In this document: piece by piece, positions 1 through 24,582 of the stretch
Numbering within the stretch: position 1 is the first letter of the stretch
Layout of the letters: each line of letters opens with the position of its first letter
Assembly (NCBI RefSeq): GCF_000003605.2
Contig: NW_003109084.1
Location: 230,902-255,812, forward strand
Source: Saccoglossus kowalevskii
Lineage: Eukaryota; Hemichordata; Enteropneusta; Harrimaniidae
Reading direction: 5' to 3'
Length of the DNA: 24,911 bases
Program-made: the position numbers and the translations under genes
The notes under the pieces: generated by a model
Seen by the model: the letters and a program-made list of their open reading frames with translations, nothing else
Database searches by the model: none
What the model was told of the DNA's origin: nothing

Positions 1-430
1 TTTATTTGGCCATATTACTACGACACGAAACACATGTTTTGATATAAATAAACAATCTGTTGTATACGCCACTTGGAACTCAAGTTTCAAGGACATGCTC
101 GCGACAACCCCTCCGCTTTAATATGACGAGCACAAAGAGAACTTAACGGGGACTGTGTCATTTTCAATGACTTGTATTTTTATTAAAAAACCGAAATATA
201 TCACCTTTTTATCAATGTTTACTTTTTCACTTTTGTAAGCATTTAATCACATCATGCAACAATGCTTCGTGTTGCTGCATCAAACTAAACGCTATACCAG
301 TATGTATTACAATGTCATACAGCAGAAAAACAGCTGTGATTATCTTGTACTTGTTCCAATCGGAAATAAATATGGATGATAGCTTACTCCTATCTTGATG
401 AAACAAAATAAAACTTTTTTGTCAATCGCT
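1..430 (-). other. 3' flank / 3' UTR side of the NXT gene
   Basis: This stretch lies past the NXT stop codon. No second gene is visible in it. On the minus strand there is an AATAAA at 184-179 and an ATTAAA at 247-242, either of which could be the NXT polyadenylation signal, giving a 3' UTR of roughly 200-270 nt. Confidence 0.5.
179..184 (-). terminator. Candidate polyadenylation signal of NXT (AATAAA)
   Basis: AATAAA on the minus strand, about 247 nt past the NXT stop codon. ATTAAA at 247-242 is an alternative. Hexamers are frequent in DNA this AT-rich, so position is the only support. Confidence 0.35.
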
Positions 431-588
431 TCATTCATGAAATCTGAAAGAGTCACTGGCGACTTTCCAGACGTCTCCCGTTTGAGCGAGTACAAAAGTC
501 TGATTGAATCCCTGCATCCGATTCCCTTCAAATTTGACCGTGCCAGAAACGGTTACCAACACAGATGTCACTCCATTTGTCGCTTCCT
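431..588 (-). CDS. NXT1: NXT exon 4 (terminal)
   Basis: Acceptor TTTTTTTGCAG ends at 589. The exon starts with 2 nt completing Glu82 and codes residues 82-133, ending DSFRFHE and TGA at 433-431. It holds the KFEGN strand and the FNQTFVL and VWKVASD strands of the NTF2-like sheet. Confidence 0.95.
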
Positions 589-3500
589 CTGCAAAAAAAC
601 AGAAAGATGAACCACATGAAGATATCTGGTGATAAAGATACAACCATTTTCATTTGTACAAATAATATTGCGCATCAATACTCCATCCCGTCCCAATCAA
701 CAATTTCTGATAAATGCACCTGGTTAACAAAACAAAATCATTTTCTGAAATAGTGCATGAGGGCTCACTTTGAAATCTCAATTCCACAATCATTGTGTGA
801 GGGCTCACTTTTAGGTTATATTTATGGAACAATTAGATTTTTTACGAGTGTGAAGATTCTCGTTTGATCCACACACGATTAGCACTTGATTCGCATTCGA
901 TTCACGTATGATTGATACTTCCATTGAAATAATTCACGCAAATGTTGATCTATAGCAATTGCAGCTAATTTATCAATATTTTTGTGATGAAAAATAGACA
1001 TAAATTTAGTATTTTCTGTTTCTTTAGCTTTTTATACTTGTTTGAGCCCATGTGACTTCCGATGTGAGTGAGACTGTAACCATGATTTTACCCAAAAGAA
1101 ATAGGTTGATCCCTGTTTTTCCTACATAAAAAATGCTATGCATGGGTTTCTCGAGAGAACAAAACTGCAAAAGAGAGCACTGCAATTCAGCAGCGCCACT
1201 AAGTGGGGGAGATAGGGATTTCCCTACCAGAGTGTGGATTTTTTTATCATTCTAAGTTAGGGCTTAGGGCCAAAATTACTATCAGACAGGTCACAGTTGA
1301 AGACTGTGGCCACATGTGATCTCTGGTTAATCAGAATTTTATGGTTGCCAGAGGATCTGCTTTCCAGGGTAAGGGGGTGCATGGCCATGGCATGAGGGTG
1401 CTGCGCCACTGTTCCCTTGTTTAAAAAAATCCTTGATACACGCATTGTACGTGAATAAAAAAAATGAGAATTAATACGGTAGAATACAAATCAAAGTCAT
1501 TTTTTACCTTTCGGCAAAATTAATAGAATCATTTTTGGTTGATTCAAATAAATAGTGATTCATTTCAGCTTTGTTAGGACCACATATATCACAATATTTT
1601 CTCTTACTTGAAAACCAAATCATATCACTAAAGAGTGCATCTTACTTTGTTGGCAATGGCTTACCAAGCTGAAACCAGCAGTTATACTAAATACTAATCA
1701 CTCATTTTACAAAGTCTCAAGTAATTATTTTGGTTGTAATTCCTGTACCCTTACCAGCAATTGGCTGACAGTCCAATGTATCAACTCTAAAATCACTCGT
1801 TGGTAGTTGTTCGTAAAACTTTGTGATCTGTTGAGAACCGCTGCAAGCATTTCCATTCCAAACAAGAGACGCATCGGCAGAATATAATTTTGATAATTTC
1901 TGTGAAGTCATAAACTGTTATTAGTATCAGACATGGTATATCATCCATGCATCCCAGCAACTCCACTGCACTCACCACAGCCTATTCCTGTTGTAATTAA
2001 AATTATTTTATGCCCAACACTTCATTAAAATAGTTACATTTTCTATCACTAGTACACCCCTCCAATCCCTTTGATCATTAATATTTATAGCTCTGTGTAC
2101 AGGTCTGTGAAGAGTGATATAAAATATGGACATATCCTGTACATGCAAGTAAAGCTGCCAGTTTGCAGGGAGAGCATGTTGGTGATTTTGAGTTCACAGG
2201 CAGTTCTGAACTGGCAATTGTGAGTTTCCATGCAGCTGTGAACTGGCGGTTTGCGAGTTTGCAATCAGCTCTGAACTGGCGTTTGCGAGTTTGCAATCAG
2301 CTATGAACTGGCGTTTGCGAGTTTGCAATCAGCTATGAACTGGTGTTTGCGAGTTTGCAATGAGCTCTGAACTGGTGTTTGCGAGTTTGCAATCAGCTCT
2401 GAACTGGCGTTTGCAAGTTTGCAATCAGCTCTGAACTGGTGTTTGTGAGTTTGCAATCAGCTGTGAACTGGCGTTTGCAAGTTTACAATCAGCTCTGAAC
2501 TGGCGTTTGAAAGTTTACAATCAGCTCTGAACTGGCGGTTTGCGAGTTTGCAATCAGCTCTGAACGAGCATTTGCAAGTTTGCAATCAGCTCTGAACGGG
2601 TGATTGCGAGTTTGCAATCAGCTCTGAACGGGTGATTGCGAGTTTGCAATCAGCTCTGAACTGGTGATTGCGAGTTTGCAATCAGCTCTGAATGGGTGAT
2701 TGCGAGTTTGCAATCAGCTCTGAACGGGTGATTGCGAGTTTACAATCAGCTCTGAACTGGCGTTTGCAAGTTTACAATCAGCTCTGAACTGGTGTTTGCA
2801 AGTTTGCAATCAGCTCTGAACTGGTGTTTGCAAGTTTGCAATCAGCTTTGAACTGGCATTTGCAAGTTTGCAATCAGCTCCGAACATGCGTTTGCGAGTT
2901 TGCAATCAGCTCTGAACTGGTGTTTGCAAGTTTGCAATCAGCTCTGAAACTGGCGTTTGCGAGTTTGCAATCAGCTCTAAACTGGCGTTTGCAAGTTTAC
3001 AATCAGCTCTGAACTGGCGTTTGCAAGTTTGCAATCAGCTTTGAACTGGCAGTTTGCTAGTTTGCAATCAGCTCTGAACTGGCGTTTGCAAGTTTACAAT
3101 CAGCTATGAACTGGCGTTTGCAAGTTTGCATTCAACTCTTACCTGGCGTTTGCAAGTTTGCAATCGGCTCTGAACTGGCGTTTTCAAGTTTGCAATCAGC
3201 TCTGAACTGGTGTTTACAAGTTTGCAATCAGCTCTGAACTGGCGTTCACAAGTTTACAATCAGCTCTGAACTGGCGTTTGCAAGTTTACAATCAGCTCTG
3301 AACTGTGGTTTGCAAGTTTACAATCAGCTCTGAACTGGCGTTTGCAAGTTTACAATCAGCTCTGAACTGGCGTTTGCGAGTTTGCAATCAGCTCTGAACT
3401 GGCGTTTGCAAGTTTACAATCAGCTCTGAACTGGTGTTTGCGAGTTTGCAATCAGCTCTGAACTGGCGTTTGTAAGTTTGCAATCAGCTCTGAACTGGTA

Positions 3501-4815
3501 TTTACGAGTTCGCAATCAGCTCTGAACTGGTGTTTGCGAGTTTGCAATGATTGAAAATGAAAACTGGGCATTTATTTTAAAATGCTTGCTGTAAGTGTTT
3601 TGGTATATGATTGTTGTTTATTCCATATTTGTCGCCTTGTTTACTACCTGTGAATAACTAAAAATCGCTGATTGAAATGGCTGAACAGGACGTTTATTTT
3701 AAAATGCCCACTGTAGAATATAAATGTAGTTGGCCAGTTCCAAAGTTGGCTTGTCAGAGAAGTCAGCCAATGAGCAAAAAGAAACAAGGTGTTGCAATGT
3801 GCATTTCATGTTTTATGCAAGTCAGTGTTATTTACATTATATCTCTTTTTGATAGCAAGAATATATGTAGTACAGTATCTCTAATGTGTTGTACATTGTA
3901 AACAGCATTATCTGTTTACAGTGATGTAAATTAATGGGCTACCGCAAGTAATAAAACTTATGTTCGATTATTTTATAGCCGTAATGTAAATTATTTTGTT
4001 TACTTAATTTGAACGCCTGACGACTGTGGTACTTTAAATATATTTGTTTTCTCCCAGCAATTTCTTACTTGATAAAAAAAAAATCCTCTCAAACGATAAG
4101 AATATATATTTCAATGTGTCAGCCACACAAAAATCATCCAAATTATCTAGTTAGCTAGCAATCAAGCATAACGGAGCTCAATTTATTATCAGATACAAAT
4201 TTGATTATGCTGAAGGTATTGTCGGTATGGTGATTTTGAAAATTATAACGATGGGATGAGGGGGATCATTCCAGTATTTTTCGACACCCCCCCTACGGAT
4301 GGATATTAAGGTTATGACACCCTATGGATTCAAATCCACGATTCAGGTGTTGGATTTTTGTTAACTCACACACCCCCTGGACACTTTACTGATTTGACGT
4401 ATACAGATGTGTATGTAAAAAAATTTAATATATCAAAAATATGACACCTCTCGGAATTAAACCATCCCCTCGGATTTAAACCGTCCGTGGGGGGGGGGGG
4501 GGAACTGGAATGACCCGGGCGCGATCGTCAGTCTTTTGTTACCTGTGAACTCGAAGTCGAACGTTCAGAGCTGACTCGTGATAACAATAATAAAATTTAC
4601 AAACTCACATTTCTTCTTTTATCCAAAGAATCGTAATATATTTTTTGAAATTCTTCTCCTGCTTGACAAGCTTGGGCTATTTTAATTTTAAAATCCTACA
4701 TAGAATAAACAAAAGTAGTCATCATACGATCCATCATGGCACAATATTCACAGTACAATGAAATCAAACTGGAACCGTAGCATGTAATTTCAAATATACT
4801 CACAGACGCCGCCAT
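431..4815 (-). CDS. NXT1: NTF2-related export protein (NXT1/NXT2, p15), complete four-exon gene
   Basis: Exons on the minus strand are 4815-4804, 4695-4609, 1899-1755 and 588-431, coding for 133 aa (human NXT1 has 140). Known role: NXT/p15 has an NTF2-like fold and pairs with NXF1/TAP to carry mRNA through the nuclear pore. Seen here: an N-terminal helix with QACQAGEEF and YYDSLDKRR, then LVWNGNACSG, TLDCQPIA, GTVKFEGN, FNQTFVL and VWKVASDSFRF, all matching human NXT1 in order. Asp76 in LDCQP is the residue that in human p15 contacts an NXF1 arginine. The loop before VWK is shorter than in human and the C terminus ends three residues sooner. All introns are GT-AG with matching phases (0, 0, 1). 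The start was chosen because ATG lies in an AAAATGGCGGC motif and is followed after four codons by GTGAGT. NXT1 versus NXT2 cannot be separated; invertebrates usually have one copy. It is divergent with the 5176-9346 gene. Confidence 0.95.
589..1754 (-). other. NXT intron 3
   Basis: 1,166-bp GT-AG intron (donor GTAAGG at 1754, acceptor at 589), phase 1. No gene inside. It has a 13-bp direct repeat, TGAGGGCTCACTT, at 758-770 and 798-810, spaced 40 bp, and short TE-like GC-rich text near 1190-1240. Confidence 0.85.
1755..1899 (-). CDS. NXT1: NXT exon 3
   Basis: Acceptor ACTTCACAG ends at 1900; donor GCTG|GTAAGG. Codes residues 34-81 plus the first base of codon 82: KLSKLY, SLVWNGNACSG, FYEQLPTSDF, TLDCQPIA. 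The start was set by alignment of KLSKLY to human LLSRLY directly after DKRR; an ATG slightly upstream (1911) is intronic. Confidence 0.95.
2181..3549. repeat. 32-bp minisatellite, about 43 copies, in NXT intron 2
   Basis: Head-to-tail array with a 32-bp period (for example unit starts at 2281 and 2313). The core on the plus strand reads GAGTTTGCAATCAGCTCTGA, followed by ACTGG and GTTTGC. Most units differ at a few sites (TGC/TAC before AATC, GCG/GTG after CTG). A cluster near 2590-2750 shares a GGGTGATTGCGAG variant, suggesting local block duplication. A few units are 33 bp. There are no unique spacers. Confidence 0.97.
3550..4265. other. Rest of NXT intron 2 with a duplicated ~50-bp block
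   Basis: No gene seen. Two related blocks begin at about 3548 and 3670; both start TGATTGAAA and share the run TTTATTTTAAAATGC. A 74-codon ATG frame starts inside the second block at 3677 but looks like chance. Confidence 0.6.
4266..4513. mobile_element. MITE-like element with poly-C/poly-G terminal inverted repeats
   Basis: The left end TCATTCCAGT (4266-4275) is inverted at the right end (4504-4513). Further in, the left side has a C7 run then TACGGATGG, and the right side read inward has a C14 run then ACGGACGG. The inverted repeat is therefore about 35 bp with a variable homopolymer. There is no coding capacity in 248 bp. No clear target-site duplication was found, so the exact ends are uncertain by a few bases. 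Confidence 0.6.
4609..4695 (-). CDS. NXT1: NXT exon 2
   Basis: Acceptor TATGTAG ends at 4696; donor AAT|GTGAGT. 29 codons, phase 0 on both sides, residues 5-33: DFKIKIAQACQAGEEFQKIY, then YDSLDKRRN. This is the N-terminal helix of the NTF2-like fold; DFK, QAC, EEF, YY and DKRR all match human NXT1. Confidence 0.95.
4804..4815 (-). CDS. NXT1: NXT exon 1 coding part (MAAS)
   Basis: ATG GCG GCG TCT followed directly by GTGAGT at 4803. Joining it in phase 0 to exon 2 gives MAASDFK, against MASVDFK in human NXT1. The 108-bp intron that follows is the shortest in the gene. Confidence 0.9.
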
Positions 4816-4818
4816 TTT
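4808..4818 (-). promoter_or_regulatory. YY1-type motif over the NXT start codon (AAAATGGCGGC)
   Basis: The minus strand reads AAAATGGCGGC, the YY1 consensus found at the first exons of many animal housekeeping genes, where it often supplies the start codon. Binding here is inferred. Confidence 0.6.
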
Positions 4819-5175
4819 CGCTCTCCCACGCTGCTTTGTCTACTTCCGGGTTCAGGGTCAAGGGTGAGCATCGTTCCAGGGGGGTTGTATACTCGTAAGC
4901 GGTAAGCCGACTTATGCAGTTTGAGATAAAAAGAGGCCACGACAGTTGCTGCCGACGTGAGTGCCACCGCAGAAAGTGTTTTGAGACAAAGGGTGGGTAG
5001 TTTTCGAGGTTTAGAAAAGTGGAAAACGTCCGCATATTTAGTTCAGCATTTCCGATTGTTCAGTCGGCGTGCGTGTGTACGTGGTACTGGTGGTTGGCAT
5101 CATCGTCAATACACGGTGTGGCATACACTTTGTAGTTAAGTTAAGCTACTGGCCTGCGAATTACGCGTTCTCGCG
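4816..5175. promoter_or_regulatory. Shared head-to-head promoter of NXT and the membrane-protein gene
   Basis: The 360 bp between the two divergent start codons are richer in G+C and CpG than anything around them (CGCC, CGACGT, CGTGCG, GCGTTCTCGCG). No convincing TATA box sits at the right place for either gene, which fits a CpG-type bidirectional promoter. The 5' UTRs of both genes must lie here. Confidence 0.7.
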
Positions 5176-5569
5176 ATGATCCAAGTTGATGTATTCTGGT
5201 CCTTTGCGATGGGCGCATGTTTCGCCTCATGCGCCGCCGAGTCGTTAAAGAGGGAAACTTCTGTGTTCATCAATAAATACTTCGTGTATTGCGTTTTGTA
5301 TCTGAGCCTTATCTTTGGTCCGTCTGGTGTATATCTACTATGGGGATACCCAGGATGGGAGACGATGTTTTTTCTAGATCGCAGCCTTAATCCGATCTGG
5401 CCGTGTTTATTTGCCTGTACGAACGTCTTGCAAGGAGTGTTGGGGTTTGTTGTGGTTTGGAAATTAATTCATAACGGCAAAGAAGCGACAGCGCACGCTG
5501 TCTGGACCATGGCATACACTTGTATGTTTACTATCTTGACACTTGGGTATGACAGATTCCTCTATGCAG
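5176..5569 (+). CDS. Membrane-protein gene exon 1
   Basis: 131 codons plus one base, residues 1-131. It ends CTCTATGCAG before a GC donor. Holds the WGYPGWETMF motif and about four hydrophobic segments. Confidence 0.88.
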
Positions 5570-8500
5570 GCAAGTTGATAACTAAGGGATGGACCATTTT
5601 AAATTATGTGGTGCGATTTGAGGCTTTGGACGCTTTTCAAAATGACTAAAGAGAAAATGTATGAATCAGCAATTGAATTTTAAAATTGAAGAAAACTGCT
5701 GCTAGAACTGATAAATCACACTTGCTCTATTTCCCTCCCCCTGCCACGGGTTTAAAATGGTCCATCCCTTAACTTTTTTTGGTTTTAATTAATTCTAGTT
5801 TAAAAATGTACAGCGATTATATTATGGGCAGTACTCGAACATTTATGGAAAGTGATTGTTGTCATAGCAACACTAATTTGGCAAAATGATAAAAATACTG
5901 TTTATAACAGAGAGAAAAATCATTATGCAAAATAATGCACCATTGAGGGTTCAGTTAACAAAATAACTACAGTAAGTGTTAATTTATTAATGAAACCTTT
6001 AAACTACTAGTAATCTGTTCTTTTTTGTTGAACTTTAGATTTTATATTAGGACAATGAATTGGACATTGTACATTCATTTCCTGTTGACTTCTTTACATT
6101 GTTCTGCAAAAACGTTTTGATTTTTTTAACATGATATCTGAAAAGTTTGAGATAGTAGAGATTGTCTAAATTTGACAATCATAAATACAGTCAGCTGCAG
6201 ATATTTTTTATTAATGATACAAATAACAAATTATAACGATTTTGCTATTACCGGTAATCAGTGTTTATAGCCAACTTAATATACCAATAATTTTGATCAG
6301 CTTAGTGAAATAAAATATGAATTTCCAACGACTTAATTAATATTTTATAAAGTGGGAAAAAATATGCTATATTAATAATGTCAAATTTTTTATTGAAACT
6401 GGAAATTTTATAATATGCCAAAGTATATTGATAATGATTGAGATGTGTTAAAAAAACAAAATACATTAAATTTGACCTTATATAATTGATGAAAAAATCA
6501 CTTGTCATCAACTAAATTATATCAGCTTTCATACCTTGTACCGGATAGTGTGTTGGCCTCACTTAAGATAAAACTATCAGATAAACAAAAATCGTTTAAA
6601 TCGTGCATATCAGGTTTGAAATTTGTATAGCTTCTAATTTTATTTTACTGAGGATATGGCAACTTGATCTGCAGATTTTTTTTTGTCACTGAATTGTGGA
6701 AATTGTGCTTATATTCCAACATTAGCATTGCAGATCAAACAACTCATGTGTAAAGGGATGGACCATTTTTTTGAACGGGTTATTTTTTCTCCCTCCCCCA
6801 GTAAAGGTAATAATCACTTTTTACATATGTGTTCTGAGAGTTTTTTTGGGAAATAAATAAAACCATTAAAAGTTGACAAAATTGTTCTAAAATTCGAAAA
6901 AGACTTTGGGAGTCTTTGCAGTTAATGAGTCTGTGTATCTGTCTGTGTGTGATATCTTGAGAACCAATTATCAATTTCAATGAAACTTGATACAGTACAC
7001 AGATACTCTAGGATAAAGCACAGACCTAATGAGCGTTTGGTTGAAATCCTGTAAATAGTAATTACCTAATTTGCATATTAATTGGCCAATTTTAAGCCTT
7101 TTAACTTTTTTCTCATGTACCATAAAACTGATTTCAGTGAAACATTGTATATAGATGCTCTGGGATAATGCACAGACCTGATTAGTGTTTAGTTGGAATC
7201 TTTGCATATTAATCACCTAATCAGCATATTAAGTAGCCAATTTTAAGTATTTTCCCTTGTTTCCAAGTTCTCAAGTACCATTCAACAAATTTTTATGAAA
7301 CATGGTTGATATCCATGAATATTTGCATATTAATTAGCCAATCAGATTCAATGAAACTTGGTATATAGGTTCAATTTTGTGCTTACTAATTACCTAATTT
7401 GCATAAATTAACCATCTTATATGTGCTCCACAGATAACTTGAAGTACCACCCACCACAAATTTTAATGACACAAGTAAATACAGTATCCTTATTTGTACT
7501 CCATGCCTCCAATACCTTCAGCACACAGGAGTTCTTTCTAAGCTTTCTTTGATTCATACATGCACACGCGATAAAGTTGAATAAAATAACATCTAGATAT
7601 CTGTACACACTTTGAAAGATATTACTCTGGGGGACAACAAACAAATACAATAATAATAATTATAATAACAATAACAATAACAATAACAATAATAATAATA
7701 ATAACTGCTTTGTTACACAACAATATTGAATACCATCAGTGGGTACCATACAGTTTGGTAAAACCGAACTACAACATTCTAAATGCAACAAATGAATCAT
7801 AAAATCACATGGTCTCTTTGTTCTCTGACTTGGTCCTTATCTATAAACTGTAGTTTTCAAGGATTTTCAAACTACCAAACTATTCGTCATACCGGTAATT
7901 TTTTTACGAAAATTGCTTCTTTGTTTTTTGTTGTTGCAACCTGGCTTATTAATGTCTGGTTATAAAATCAACCCTTTCTGTTGATGATGTAGTTGCTGAT
8001 GAACACTATTGATGCTGCAGCAAATAATGTTTCTAATTATCACACCACCTTACCCCCAGCATTTCATTACACTCACTTTTATTGATTTTCCAGGATCCTT
8101 AGCAGAGTGGCGTGCTGGCAAGAAGTACAAACTAATAGATTTTTTCTGGTGTGATGTTTTCTATACTTTGCTAATAATGGGAGTTGTTGTTATTCCTCCG
8201 CTGTACTATGCTGTAGTAACGTTCCCAACTGATGTACCGATAAACAAAAGTAGAAAATGGACAATGATTAAACAGGTAAAACAGAAATGTGCCTATCTCT
8301 TTCACAGTCGTTTCTGCTATTGCTAACTAAGTCGCTGTAATATTGCTAGCTAAATTGCTGACTGGTTTGCTATGTATGTCTCAAGAGCATAACTGGTTAA
8401 ATCAAAGTATTTTTATGAGAGTGCTCTATTCGGTTACATCTTTCTTAAAATTCTTGGGATAAGACACTTTATACAATAAGATGAAATAACATTTTTAGGG

Positions 8501-9346
8501 AATTTCATCTTTATTTGATATTTGAACAATATTAGAACTCCTGTTGAGCTTGGTTTTATCAAAATTATTTCGTATCTATCTTGTGATGCCTATAGCTAAC
8601 AAGTTGGGAAACTTAGCCAGCAATGCAGCTATGTTGATATCTGAAACAACATTTGGCGATGACAGTAATTGATTGATTGATTAAAGCTTATATGTGCTAA
8701 GAGATGATGGACTGATACTGCCACGTTAAAAAATACACAAGTGCATTGTATCCATACACAGATGTATTTGATTGAATCTTAGTACCAGATTTTGCAATTT
8801 GATCAATAACTTACTGGTTATGATTAATTTGATTACTTTTTGTATTCTTCAGTGAAATTTAAGAACTTAAACAATGAGCACTAAGCATTGTCTCTGCTTA
8901 GCTTGTGTATGCTAATTATTCACTATTTATGCAAATTATTGAATATTTATGCAAATTAGTGACAATTCACACTAATTAGTGACATTTTATTTGACTCATT
9001 GAACATGCATATTATTGACTATTTCTGCAAGTTATTGATTATTTAAGTGTTTGTGCTAATTATTGATTTTTATTTTAATTTATTCAAAACTTTAAAAAAT
9101 GCTGTCAATTACCTTAATTTTAACAATTTATTATTTATTTTGCAGGCACTCACAGGCTACATGTATGCATCCATTGCAGTGGTGGTAGGATTCCTTCTTT
9201 TACACAACATGAAACAAACACCGCCGTCTTGGGGATACGATCGACTGCTTGCATTTCTCATCGGTCAAGCCGTATTTGGTGTTTTTATTTTTCTACCAAT
9301 GTTTTTTATTCCACTCAAACGTAATAGAATGCGAAAAATTAAATGA
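5176..9346 (+). CDS. Unrecognised multi-pass membrane protein, 258 aa, three exons
   Basis: Exons 5176-5569, 8094-8275 and 9146-9346 join in matching phases (1 then 0) into 258 codons. I do not recognise the family. Seen in the protein: about six or seven hydrophobic segments (weak at 6-21, then roughly 36-56, 75-97, 107-124, 147-173, 194-212, 225-249), consistent with a polytopic membrane protein. Aromatic-rich motifs stand out: WGYPGWETMF (56-65), GYDRFLY (124-130) and WGYDR (221-225); GYDR occurs twice, each beside a membrane segment, perhaps an internal duplication. The loop EWRAGKKYK is charged. The tail is basic (KRNRMRKIK) and ends RKIK, loosely like a dilysine ER-retrieval signal. There is no obvious signal peptide or catalytic motif. 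The start is the first ATG of an open frame next to the CpG promoter, with G at -3. The gene shares its promoter with NXT. Confidence 0.88.
5570..5575 (+). other. Non-canonical GC splice donor (CAG|GCAAGT)
   Basis: Exon 2 needs a phase-1 partner. The only good match at the end of exon 1 is GCAG|GCAAGT, which joins G to GA of exon 2 to give Gly132 in YAGSLAEW. GC donors normally carry an otherwise near-perfect consensus, as here (CAG|GCAAGT). The nearest GT donor upstream (GG|GTATGA at 5547) would put exon 2 out of frame. Confidence 0.8.
5585..5769. mobile_element. 185-bp MITE with Tc1/mariner-style TA target duplication
   Basis: Perfect 19-bp terminal inverted repeats: AGGGATGGACCATTTTAAA from 5585 and its reverse complement ending at 5769. 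TA flanks both sides (5583-5584, 5770-5771). It is too short to code for a transposase. It lies in intron 1, 15 bp downstream of the GC donor. Confidence 0.85.
6754..6800. mobile_element. Partial second copy of the same MITE family end
   Basis: Begins AGGGATGGACCATTTTTTTG and continues to CTCCCTCCCCC, matching the terminal repeat and the inner C-rich part of the 5585-5769 element. No matching right end was found nearby, so it looks truncated. Confidence 0.6.
6960..7440. repeat. Degenerate ~151-bp tandem repeat, about three units
   Basis: The blocks GATAAAGCACAGACCTAATG (7012) and GATAATGCACAGACCTGATT (7163) are about 151 bp apart. Each is preceded by CAATGAAACTTG-like text and followed by TTTGCATATTAATT..CCAATTTTAAG. 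A third, shortened unit ends near 7440. The three 66-79-codon minus-strand frames here come from this repeat and nearby AT-rich DNA. Confidence 0.7.
7649..7705. repeat. Compound (AAT)n/(AAC)n microsatellite
   Basis: Mixed AATAAT and AATAAC trinucleotide/hexanucleotide units in intron 1 of the membrane-protein gene. Confidence 0.9.
8094..8275 (+). CDS. Membrane-protein gene exon 2
   Basis: Acceptor TTGATTTTCCAG ends at 8093; donor CAG|GTAAAA. Two bases complete Gly132, then residues 133-192: SLAEWRAGKKYKLIDFFWCD, a long hydrophobic segment and KWTMIKQ. An open frame runs upstream to 8009 but only through intron sequence. Confidence 0.88.
8276..9145 (+). other. Membrane-protein gene intron 2
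   Basis: 870-bp GT-AG intron, phase 0, AT-rich. From about 8905 to 9065 it holds loose ~20-bp repeats built on TATTTATGCAAATTA and ATTAGTGACA. Two exact ATGCAAAT octamers lie at 8929-8936 and 8949-8956. No gene seen. Confidence 0.8.
9146..9346 (+). CDS. Membrane-protein gene exon 3 (terminal)
   Basis: Acceptor TTATTTTGCAG ends at 9145. 66 codons, residues 193-258, with two hydrophobic segments around NMKQTPPSWGYDR and the basic tail; TGA at 9344-9346. Confidence 0.88.
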   Translation, partial: ALTGYMYASIAVVVGFLLLHNMKQTPPSWGYDRLLAFLIGQAVFGVFIFLPMFFIPLKRNRMRKIK

Positions 9347-15120: not shown

Positions 15121-20608
<5,488 letters not shown>

Positions 20609-20819
20609 CTGTCAAATCAAGACAAAAACAGGACCATGATCATATACAACAGTCCTAGTAATGCTCGATCATCATGCGATGTGAATGGACACACATACAC
20701 GGCGATTGGAATGTATGGTGTACTAGTACTTGGAATCATACCTATGCCAACCCATCATAATATGTGCATACATCAAATTAATCCTCCATTCTATCAGTAG
20801 TTAGGTTAAAATAGAATTT

Positions 20820-21585
20820 AACCCCCCCAAAAATTGCTACAAAAGGTTTTTCAACTGATTCTAGTACTTGTTAGTGTACTTTTTAACATACTGAAAGTTC
20901 ACCAAAGTAGGATCCCCGGAAATGTTTTTTTTTCAAGATGGCGTCCAAGATGGCCGCCGAAACTTCTTAATGATTATAACTCTGTAACTATCAACTCAAA
21001 TTTCATGATCTTGGTGTCTATCCCTAGGTTTTCGGGGCAAAGAACACATTAAGATCATACAAAATGATGTTGGCCTATAATGTAACACACAAATCCAGTA
21101 TGGCGTCAAAAATGGCTGCCAACACCTCCAAATGACCGCAAGTCCATAACTATTGACACAAATGTGATAATCTTGATGTCTATCCCCAGGTTTTTTGGGG
21201 CAAGGAACACATTAAGAGAACTTTGGATATCACTGAGCTATTGAATCATTATAAAATTTAATTATGATCTTCAGCTGTCACCTCTATCACCACTATCACC
21301 TATTGCACAAACACCTTTGTCCATGGAATAAGTTTCAGAGTTTTCAGTTTCGTGTGTCATTCTCTTCCTCGGTACCAACATCTTGCGTGTTGTTTGGATT
21401 GTCACAGTTTTCAGTTTGGCAAGAGCCACATACAGCAGTGCAGGGGAGTCCATAGCGTCTGCAGCTGCATCAAGAGGATTTGCATCCCACCAAACAGTCG
21501 CAATGGATAATTTTCAAGAGTTTGTCAGGCGCAGCATTTTTTGGGGTCATAATTGGAATTAACTGATCGTTTTCCTGTTTCAATC
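20820..21585. repeat. Left terminal inverted repeat
   Basis: Matches the reverse complement of 23424-24185. It contains two ~163-bp subrepeats and the C-terminal cysteine-rich exon of the element's gene (minus strand, stop at 21344). Similarity stops at CCTGTTTC near 21581-21585. Confidence 0.9.
20935..21216. repeat. Two ~163-bp subrepeats inside the left inverted repeat
   Basis: Unit 1 starts with AAGATGGCGTCCAAGATGGC (20935) and unit 2 with GTATGGCGTCAAAAATGGC (21099). Both continue through TAACTAT.., ATCTTG(G/A)TGTCTATCCC and end in GGGGCAA(A/G)GAACACATTAAG. Mirror copies are in the right repeat. The ATGGC cores resemble YY1 sites. Confidence 0.8.
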
Positions 21586-23440
21586 TCCATTCGATTGGAT
21601 TCATTTCATTTGCCATCCCCATCCATACCATAATTTGAAAGTACACACATTGGCTATGGAATCTTGTTGCAGGTAATGTTGGGGGAAGCCATTCAAGAGT
21701 GACAAATGATTCAGCAGTTGCCACTTTCTTGGTGAAAATGATAAGGCGCAGTGATGATAGTGTATCATTATACTTGCCACCAAAGAGATTAACCATCATG
21801 TCTTTGGCAAGACCTGATATGTCCTCCTGAGATTTGTTTTGAAGGATGAATGCACTAGCACAGGACTTCATGACAGGATCAGATTTCACTAATTTCCGAA
21901 AGGCTGACTTTTTTTCCGATGCCGAAAATCCTTGAAGTTCAAACACAGCCTGAGTAGGCATGTACAAAGAGCAACTCATTGCACACATCATCTCCTAAAG
22001 TTTCTTTCAACAGGTTAATGTTATACACTTTGTGTTCTTTTGACTGCTTATTAGCATCAGAACGGAAGAAGATGATCTCATTGTCTGTTCTGGAGTAATG
22101 AAGGAGCAAGATCAGCGAATCTGTATCCTCAGCCACCGAACACCACTGTCACTAGTCCGTAATGTCTCTCAGTGAAGTCTGCATAATACTCGGCTATTGC
22201 ATCATCTTTCTTCCAAGGTAAACGGTGGAGCAAAGAACCACCTCAAGCACGTACCAATCTGTTTCAGGAATAGAGTTCATCACAGCCTCACTTGATAAGT
22301 CCGCAGCATGGTCGCGAATTGTCTGCTCTTCGAAGAATGTTCCTGGCCTCAAAGAGGACTGGAGGGTAGGGGCTTAGTTCATATGTCAAAACTTTTTCAA
22401 GGGAAAGATCTCCTGACCTTGACCCCACAAGGAAACACTGGAACAGAAGGGCAGTACGATTTGCCTTGATCAACATTCTTGCCATGTCAACCATGCGCTG
22501 ATAAATTAGTCACAACTGGCTGGACTTTGAGGTCTGAGGAAGCTCAGATTTCTTCTTCTCCATTACTGTCTTGAGTCGAATCAAAACCTCAGAACAAGCA
22601 GCATCTCCTAGCGTTGTCTCTCCACTAAGAAGGGAGGAATACAATTCCTCGGCTTGATCCAGCAATGTCTGAATCTCGGGATCGTCTTTGACCATTTCCG
22701 TTATAAGCTGGTTACGTAGGCACTTGTCAAAAAGAAGATGGCCCCACAAAGCCCTCCGGACAGCTTTCCCTGTCATCATGTGCACAACTGCATTTTCTCC
22801 AAAGACAGTCTTGAGTATGTTTTTGAGCCCAGTCCCTTCCATGAGAGTTCCTATGGCCACCAGCAAGTTCATAAGTGTATGAAAACACCCCAACATCAGT
22901 ACAATGCCATTCAAGTGACTACTTTGTGGCGCATCAACGATGATATCGGCAACCTTCCAATACAAGGGCTGGTCAAATGTTACAATGGTGGCAAGGTTGT
23001 GCTTCATGGCAAGGTTGCAAACAAAGTCTAATGTAGACACAATGCATGATTTGTCTCCAGAGTACATATTGATCATAGGCAAGAATTTGACTGAGAACTG
23101 CCCAGGGTGCTGGCTCCCCTGATGCAAGATATGCATCATCCCTAGCCAATTCGGTGTTGCCTCTTTGAAGCCGAGGGAGACTTCCCACAGAATATCGATC
23201 CTCTTGTCAGAGTCAAGAAATCTCGGCAGGTCCTGGAAAACTACCTCATGACAAGCATGACTTGCAAACCTGTACTCCAAGATTGTTTTAAGTTTTCAGT
23301 CCTGAGATCTTTCTTCGTGGAATGATATGGTTCATCCTTTTTCTAGGGGTGATAGAAGCAATGACACCCATTCCATGAAATGTCCCTTTGCTGATAATAG
23401 TGATAATGTTGTGATCAATTGGGATGGAAACAGGAAAATG
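21344..23440 (-). pseudogene. Decayed transposon protein with PIN-like and CXC-like C-terminal parts
   Basis: Read on the minus strand. A first piece has ISKGTFHGMGVIASITPRK (about 23440-23290). After a frameshift comes the longest open stretch, 23280-22513, with TLDFVCNLAMKHNLATIVTF, DQPLYWK, LGCFHTLMN and GENAVVHMMTGKAVRRALWG. An in-frame TGA at 22512-22510 follows SSQL, then YQRMVDMARMLIKANRTALL and SPYPPVLFEARNILRRAD. More frameshifts follow (near 22300, 22210, 22130). AEDTDSLILLLHYS, YNINLLKETLGDD and LLFVHAYSGC look like the C-terminal half of an XPG/FEN1-type PIN domain. After a frameshift at about 21950 come FELQGFSASEKKSAF, QENDQLIPIMTPKNAA and C-x-C-x3-C spacing typical of zinc binding, with a TGA in CKSS*CSC. 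The 23280 frame opens with TTG, not ATG, because its true upstream part is out of frame. I recall similar proteins from many invertebrate genomes but cannot name the family. Confidence 0.8.
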
Positions 23441-24185
23441 ATCAGTTAATTCCAATTATGACCCCAAAAAATGCTGCGTCTGACAAACTCTTGAAAATTA
23501 TCCATTGCAACTGTTTGGTGGGATGCAAATCCTCTAGATGCAGCTGCAGACGGTATGGACTCCCCTGCACTGCTGTATGTGGCCCTTGCCAAACTGAAAA
23601 CTGTTACAACCCAAACAACACTCAATACGTTGATACTGGGGAAGAGGATGATGCTCAAAACTGAAAACTCTGAAACTTATTCCATGGACAAAGGTATTTG
23701 TGCAATAGGTGATAGTAGACAGCTGAAGGTCGTGAATTCAATTTCATAATGATTCAATAGCTCAGTGATATCCAAAGTTCTCTCAATGTGTTCCTTGCCC
23801 AAAAAACCTGGGGATGGACATCAAGATTATCACATTTGTGTCAATAGTTATGATCTTGCAGTCATTTGGAGGTGTTGGCAGCCATTTTTGACGCCATACT
23901 AGATTTGTGTGTTACATAATAAGCCAACATCATTTTGTATGATCTTAATGTGTTCTATGTCCCCAAAAACCTAGGTATAGACACCAAGATCATCAAATTT
24001 GAGTTGATAGTTACAGAGTTATGATCTTTCAGATGTTTCGACGGCCATCTTAGACGCCATCTTGAAAAAAAAAACTTTTCCGGGGGTCCTACTTTGATAA
24101 ACTTTTAGTATGTTAAAAAGTACACTGAAACCTACCAGAATCAGTTGAGAAACCTTTTGTAGCAATTTTTGGGGGTTGAGGGGTT
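23424..24185. repeat. Right terminal inverted repeat
   Basis: Inverted match to 20820-21585, with the same two subrepeats and a plus-strand copy of the cysteine-rich exon. Confidence 0.9.
23425..23664 (+). pseudogene. Inverted copy of the element's C-terminal CXC-like exon
   Basis: Reads QENDQLIPIMTPKNAASDKL, then HCNCLVGCKSSRCSCRRYGL, then PCTAVCGPCQTENCYNPNN, and stops at 23664. All cysteines are present, whereas the minus-strand copy in the main gene has a stop where this one has Arg. There is no ATG and no upstream gene, so it is a fragment carried in the inverted repeat. Confidence 0.8.
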
Positions 24186-24582
24186 ATTTTCCATATATTG
24201 ACCTGACTACAGGCCGGGGAGGGCGAGTAGTTACGTCTCACATTATGATATTTCATTGTTCGCGTGTTGAATTCTATTTGCTAGTGTTTTGGCAGTATAG
24301 TGTAGGCTATACATATACTATGTAGCATTCAAAACACATCTTTAACATATACTAACTACTAAAACTAAACGGAGAAGAAATGCTGATTTCCTGTACATGG
24401 TGAGTTTAGTGAAATCGACATCAATGCTCTGCTGTGCAGCGTAGCCCTCGGTGTTAAAACGAAGCAAGAAACCAGGTATATATTACTCCTTCCCGGGGCG
24501 ACTGGGAGAGAGGATACACGAATGTTTAAGATGACCTTTGTGTAATGTCCAGTACAGTAGTACACATTTATATTCATGTAAT
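24186..24582. other. No gene recognised
   Basis: About 400 bp between the inverted-repeat element and the LTR. I looked for the receptor's missing first exon (signal-anchor span on the minus strand) and did not find it. The 82-codon minus-strand frame at 24365-24613 shows no membrane span or family motif. Confidence 0.5.

Follow-up and report, generated by a model that had tools for sequence, protein, structure and literature searches.

Layout of the element in the window

The window, i.e. the whole stretch of 24,911 nucleotides analysed here (C347:230902-255812 in the searched Saccoglossus kowalevskii genome of 572 Mb and 4830 contigs), contains an element with the remnant of a minus-strand gene between two long inverted arms. 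Its features are listed below, where L018 denotes a full-length relative and L025 and L068 are two more distant elements of the same genome.

20798..24209, minus-strand gene remnant: whole element, 3412 bp, with the termini TAGTTAGG...CCTGACTA
20795..20797, no strand: left copy of the target site duplication, CAG; layout as in L025 (TTG) and L068 (TTA)
24210..24212, no strand: right copy of the target site duplication, CAG
20798..21190, plus strand: inverted-repeat portion of the left (C-side) arm, corresponding to the inverted repeat of full-length L018 (375 bp)
21191..21591, minus strand: inner portion of the left arm, formed by the gene's 3' end including the Cys-rich C-terminal exon and a downstream stretch; beyond the inverted repeat in L018
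21347-21538, minus strand: Cys-rich stretch of the left arm, one TGA inside
21592..23416, minus strand: gene body remnant, with two internal deletions relative to L018, at about 22131-22137 and 22452-22454
23417..23418, no strand: junction of the inverted exon copy with the gene body; microhomology of about 2 bp (TT)
23417..23957, plus strand: overwritten inner portion of the right arm, an inverted C-side copy with the second Cys-rich exon; outer limit within about 23807-23957
23470-23661, plus strand: Cys-rich stretch of the right arm, no stop
23958..24209, minus strand: outer portion of the right arm, of the N-side (5'-side) terminus type

Alignment of the two arms (20797-21591 against 24210-23417) gave 721 identical positions among 783 ungapped columns, with 23 gap columns; the arms (20798-21591 and 23417-24209) are ~794 bp long and 92.1% identical, and a repeat search of the window recovered the same arm pairs in pieces. 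This similarity is far beyond chance. Together, the arm alignment and the exon matches confirm the claim of the initial annotation that long inverted repeats are present here, each carrying the Cys-rich 3' end of the gene. The span of 20820-24185 that had been given for the element does hold inverted repeats, but its limits were too narrow, since the repeats reach 20798 and 24209. Moreover, because the similarity of the ends extends outward past ATTT to TAGT, the proposal that ATTT is the flanking target duplication has to be rejected: ATTT is internal to the repeat, the element ends are TAGT...ACTA, and the true duplication is the 3-bp CAG. The ends of related copies suggest a terminus of TAGTYRGG or near it. 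A 3-bp flanking duplication was found in all three both-ended elements (CAG in the window, TTG in L025 and TTA in L068), L018 with its eroded N terminus and L019 with its missing C terminus being left out of this scoring. The chance of one such match is ~2%, and the product for three is 6.6e-6, with the ends picked from the alignment. The identical CAG on both sides is evidence that the two ends are parts of a single insertion.

Between the arms, the longest open piece of the gene body covers 22510-23280 and encodes 256 aa. Compared with L018, the window copy lacks about 680 and 215 bp of coding sequence, and the deletion at 22452 carries 3 bp (CTG) of microhomology as read from the sequences. 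Furthermore, the 5' coding part of L018 (open frame from 2746) up to L018 position 4097 is missing from the window element, which bears out the earlier statement that the N-terminal part of the gene was removed. Because of the two coding deletions and the TGA in its own Cys-rich exon, the window copy is, judging from its sequence, dead.

Minus-strand exons of the CD36 family were detected at 20441-20611 (E 2.8e-15) and 18490-18807 (E 4.3e-7), and the element lies directly upstream of the more N-terminal one. Because it adjoins the exon at 20441-20611, the element is probably located in an intron of a CD36-family gene or just upstream of that gene. Elsewhere in the window, 2113-3550 is a minisatellite of about 32-bp units, with 34 register copies of a 300-nt reference, and 5176-5649, 8009-8326 and about 9146-9345 (by eye) are candidate exons that may encode a small multi-pass membrane protein; the frame at 5176-5649 showed a sub-threshold EXPERA match (E 0.038).

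Relatives in the host genome

A search of the genome with the left arm gave at least 17 matches, and the relatives were studied in ten fetched stretches plus four more. The full-length relative L018 occupies 1996-7654 of its stretch (5.66 kb) and has a 375-bp inverted repeat that is 88% identical between its arms. The 5' part of its gene starts from about 2746, its Cys-rich exon stands solely beside the right repeat (the C arm), and its N arm resembles the window arms only as far as the limit of the inverted repeat. The deleted relative L019 has an inverted repeat of 364 columns, while those of the more distant L025 and L068 measure 201 bp plus 41 bp and 141 columns, respectively. Overall, the inverted repeats are about 130-375 bp in these four relatives, in which both arms were seen. 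The stretches of L021 and L022 end short of the far arm, and no inverted repeat was found in those of L066 and L067. These data fit the expectation of the initial annotation, i.e. relatives with shorter inverted repeats and, in L018, a longer gene whose 5' part is missing in the window. Two further observations concern the N arms: in L018 (2650-2718) and L023 (6365-6433) the N-side terminus occurs a second time, internally and in inverted orientation, and the first ~720 bp of L018, given this internal copy, look like a separate small element.

Among the 11 loci searched for the Cys-rich exon, six (L019, L021, L025, L066, L067, and L068) gave a single clear match and L020 a weak one (29%, E 1.6e-5; 4297-4488, with the only arm of this locus about 0.9 kb away), and no match was found in L023, L024, L026, and L027. 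A genome-wide search listed at least 82 exon matches at E<=0.01, with one apiece within L018, L019, L021, L022, and L025. Only two opposed pairs less than 10 kb apart occur among these listed matches, namely the window and a pair on contig C1299 (157835, plus; 160833, minus). The latter was discounted, as its exons face inward with no inverted repeat joining them, and only one of the two closely resembles L066. Thus, the exon is single in the relatives, and the at least 82 listed matches include no second pair joined by an inverted repeat; exon copies in both arms of most relatives, the finding that was to speak against the earlier reading, were not seen. In a separate observation, the Cys-rich motif has two direct matches of equal score, 7 kb apart, on contig C1712 (824-1006 and 7867-8049, in open frames of 329 and 435 aa), perhaps representing a tandem pair of related genes.

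The 256-aa piece of the window had 57 matches in the host genome. The same protein family is represented in L031 (C4014) by an open frame of 830 aa (85-2574, minus strand), which shares 47% identity with a portion of the window protein and had no Pfam match at E<=1. As for the junction at 23417/23418, only one of the eight genome matches to 23250-23760 crossed it, which was the window itself. In query coordinates the join is at 168/169; the other seven matches either start at 168 or 187 (five matches) or end at 169 or 73 (two matches). The 2-bp microhomology of the junction may be due to chance. With the junction found once and crossed by none of the seven other matches, the later transposition of a foldback form, which had been invoked previously, is neither needed nor shown.

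The mosaic right arm and its proposed origin

To assign the arms, arm-specific columns were defined by three C arms (that of L019 lacking the outermost bases) against three N arms. Of the 16 arm-separating columns up to 21040, 15 had the N-side letter in the right window arm (eight of the 16 belong to one insertion); in the sixteenth, the inserted base is present but different. The right arm was also N-side at all seven substitutions where the left arm is C-type. A FastTree phylogeny of 20797-21040 placed the C arms and the left window arm on one side and the N arms, L020, and the right window arm on the other (local support 0.994), and the C-arm split had a support of 0.998 in a reduced set. 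In a column bootstrap, an N arm was nearest to the right arm with a frequency of 0.98 for 20797-21040, compared with 0.03 for 21041-21190. Inward of 21190, the N arms of the relatives are unrelated, and the right arm tracks the C arm for 400 bp, to 21591, where the gene body follows. Divergence between the two window arms was 31/243 in the outer part versus 37/539 in the inner part (Fisher P 0.009). Non-TIR internal sequence, missing from one arm in the relatives, is present in both window arms in opposite orientations, as in an extended-TIR derivative of the Galileo type.

These results demonstrate that the outer ~250 bp of the right arm are of the normal 5'-side type and that only the inner part was overwritten. 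The idea that the right end had been overwritten by an inverted copy of the left end therefore holds for the inner part, which is C-type and carries the exon, but fails for the outer ~250 bp, where the N-side markers and the tree place the end itself on the 5' side. With this correction, the overwrite idea stands, because the relatives have shorter repeats and one Cys-rich exon, and the 5' part of their gene is missing here.

Since the right arm is N-type outside and C-type inside, the switch is placed within the former inverted repeat, most probably in the 150 bp at its inner end. Within this zone, N-type letters reappear in the right arm at 21075 and 21144, and two of the five strict columns in 21053-21215 are N-type. 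A maximum chi-square analysis from 20824 put the break at 21040/21053 for two choices of parents (P 0.0026 and 0.047); with 12 strict sites the P value was 0.15, and arm-majority parents gave a different break (P 0.91). The control with the left arm as the target yielded P 0.16, and the analysis from 20798 yielded P 0.044, 0.12 (break 20804/20807) and 0.0014. An exact breakpoint by this method was dropped, being unstable to the choice of parents. Regarding the donor, the two window arms differ at 30/389 positions in the inner part, and the right arm differs from the C arms of L018 and L021 at 27/389 and 25/385, respectively. The grouping of the left and right window arms in the tree is weak (support 0.71-0.83). 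On these distances, either the element itself or a close copy may have served as the donor.

Based on these findings, we consider it likely that the inner part of the right arm was copied from a C-side arm, with a switch inside the shared repeat. The ancestor would have been a DNA transposon of roughly 5.6 kb with inverted repeats of about 375 bp. It would have carried a single gene, the Cys-rich 3' exon of which bordered the C-side repeat on its inner side. Damage in the 5' half, either a break or a gap left by excision, would then have undergone faulty repair, in which the right-hand end kept its N-side terminus and paired via the inverted repeat with the C-side arm of the same element, of the sister chromatid, or of a close copy. 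Copying would have run inward beyond the repeat into the Cys-rich exon, and the copied end would have been end-joined to the gene body at 23417/23418. Taken alone, a gap repair in which strand invasion preceded end joining is the step towards which we lean slightly, and the repair presumably happened in place rather than before the insertion.

A variant of this repair step, rather than an alternative to the mosaic arm, is template switching at a replication fork in the hairpin-forming element, with no gap made by a transposase. The inverted repeat permits such an intramolecular switch and short microhomologies are present at the junctions, but the product would be the same as that of gap repair and nothing here separates the two; we regard this variant as plausible but rather unlikely. 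An ectopic crossover between two opposed elements via their inverted repeats, giving a chimeric arm that a later deletion joined to the gene body, would account equally well for the mosaic arm, and the inner distances allow the donor to be another copy. However, such a crossover would normally unlink the flanks, yet CAG is found on both, and two events are required, which makes this course improbable. Slightly more doubtful still is a scenario in which an inverted copy of the left end took the place of the entire right end and the resulting foldback form later transposed to this site: the arms are indeed about 92% alike along their full length and the flanks do show a target duplication, but the outer 250 bp of the right arm are of the N-arm type, ATTT sits within the repeat, and the junction occurs at one place only. 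Finally, it is hardly credible that exon-bearing long arms are the normal architecture of the family with one copy lost in the relatives, as the exon is single in all four relatives with both arms seen (L018, L019, L025, and L068), the window is the one opposed pair with an inverted repeat among the at least 82 listed exon matches, and nothing was found in favour of this reading.

Copying from the C-side arm through the shared repeat, our preferred reading, implies that no unusual architecture belonging to a new class of transposons has to be assumed for gene-carrying arms; a single accident of repair via a short inverted repeat suffices.

Comparison with known transposons

The Academ transposons (AcademX) have a Cys-rich (Cys8) C-terminal motif. 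The layout of the element is reminiscent of Academ, in which a Cys-rich C-terminus is combined with an XPG-type nuclease domain. The Cys-rich C-terminus is present in the element family, with no Pfam family matching it, and putative FEN-like motifs were seen by eye in L018 6018-6869 (GQDTDLLILLL and GCDSTSRIFGIGKKSA). Searches of the transposon proteins against Pfam and NCBIfam gave no XPG match, a profile of 11 fragments had no PDB match, and a whole-genome XPG_I search returned nine matches at E<=10, all of which lie outside the transposon loci. More generally, Pfam, PHROGs, NCBIfam, and PDB yielded no match above the curated cut-off and none usable for these proteins; the best Pfam match was Prok-RING_1 for the N-terminal piece of L018 (E 0.0015, below its cut-off). 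No viral relatives were detected in IMG/VR by protein scans and a DNA pattern. The 3-bp duplication of the window element agrees with the target duplications of 3 or 4 bp given in a passage on AcademX (PMC10045372), and the 5.66 kb of L018 is close to the mean Academ length of 5565 bp listed for a bivalve library (PMC10294476). Overall, the element is Academ-like by its layout and 3-bp duplication, but it was not filed as Academ because no profile supported an XPG nuclease domain.

Interrupted gap repair gives rise to internally deleted DNA transposons such as those of P and Ac/Ds. The window element resembles these derivatives in its kept termini, lost interior, and short microhomologies at the joins, but it goes beyond a plain deletion in that the opposite arm, copied in inverted orientation, serves as filler. 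Long inverted arms with a predicted capacity to fold back are shared with FB and Tetris. The arms of Tetris are described as a variable number of ~220-bp tandem repeats (in part of PMC4079207), whereas each window arm has two divergent subrepeats of about 105-118 bp, which are also present in L018 with its short inverted repeat. Such foldback-like arms are not typical of the present family, given that the junction was found once and that the four relatives have inverted repeats of about 130-375 bp.

The closest parallel is Galileo, a member of the P superfamily in Drosophila. In the sections of PMC4168063 concerned, a nearly complete copy has the last 69 bp of its ORF in both TIRs, and copy 147 has more than 500 bp of the ORF there. 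A passage of PMC3573991 proposes that one TIR was broken and repaired from the other, the copied tract running past the TIR. The product is the same in both cases, namely a gene end present in both inverted arms. The window element differs from Galileo in its gene (no P-type or THAP match was obtained for the pieces scanned), in its 3-bp duplication, in lacking the 5' half of the gene, in a junction found once, and in markers showing that the recipient arm retained its outer part. The same kind of accident has already been described for Galileo, and what is added here is a different gene and the retained outer arm markers; our literature search, with few papers in full, brought up no other instance. 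It is conceivable, though we hold this only tentatively, that arm switching via the inverted repeat common to both arms is a general way for ordinary DNA transposons of unrelated superfamilies to become foldback forms. If so, the markers in the window catch the switch within the repeat, with the recipient terminus intact and thus recognisable by the transposase. The surviving portion of the recipient arm is visible here because the two original arms differ, which the near-identical arms of Galileo (98-100% within a copy in the part of PMC3573991 that deals with them) would hardly allow.
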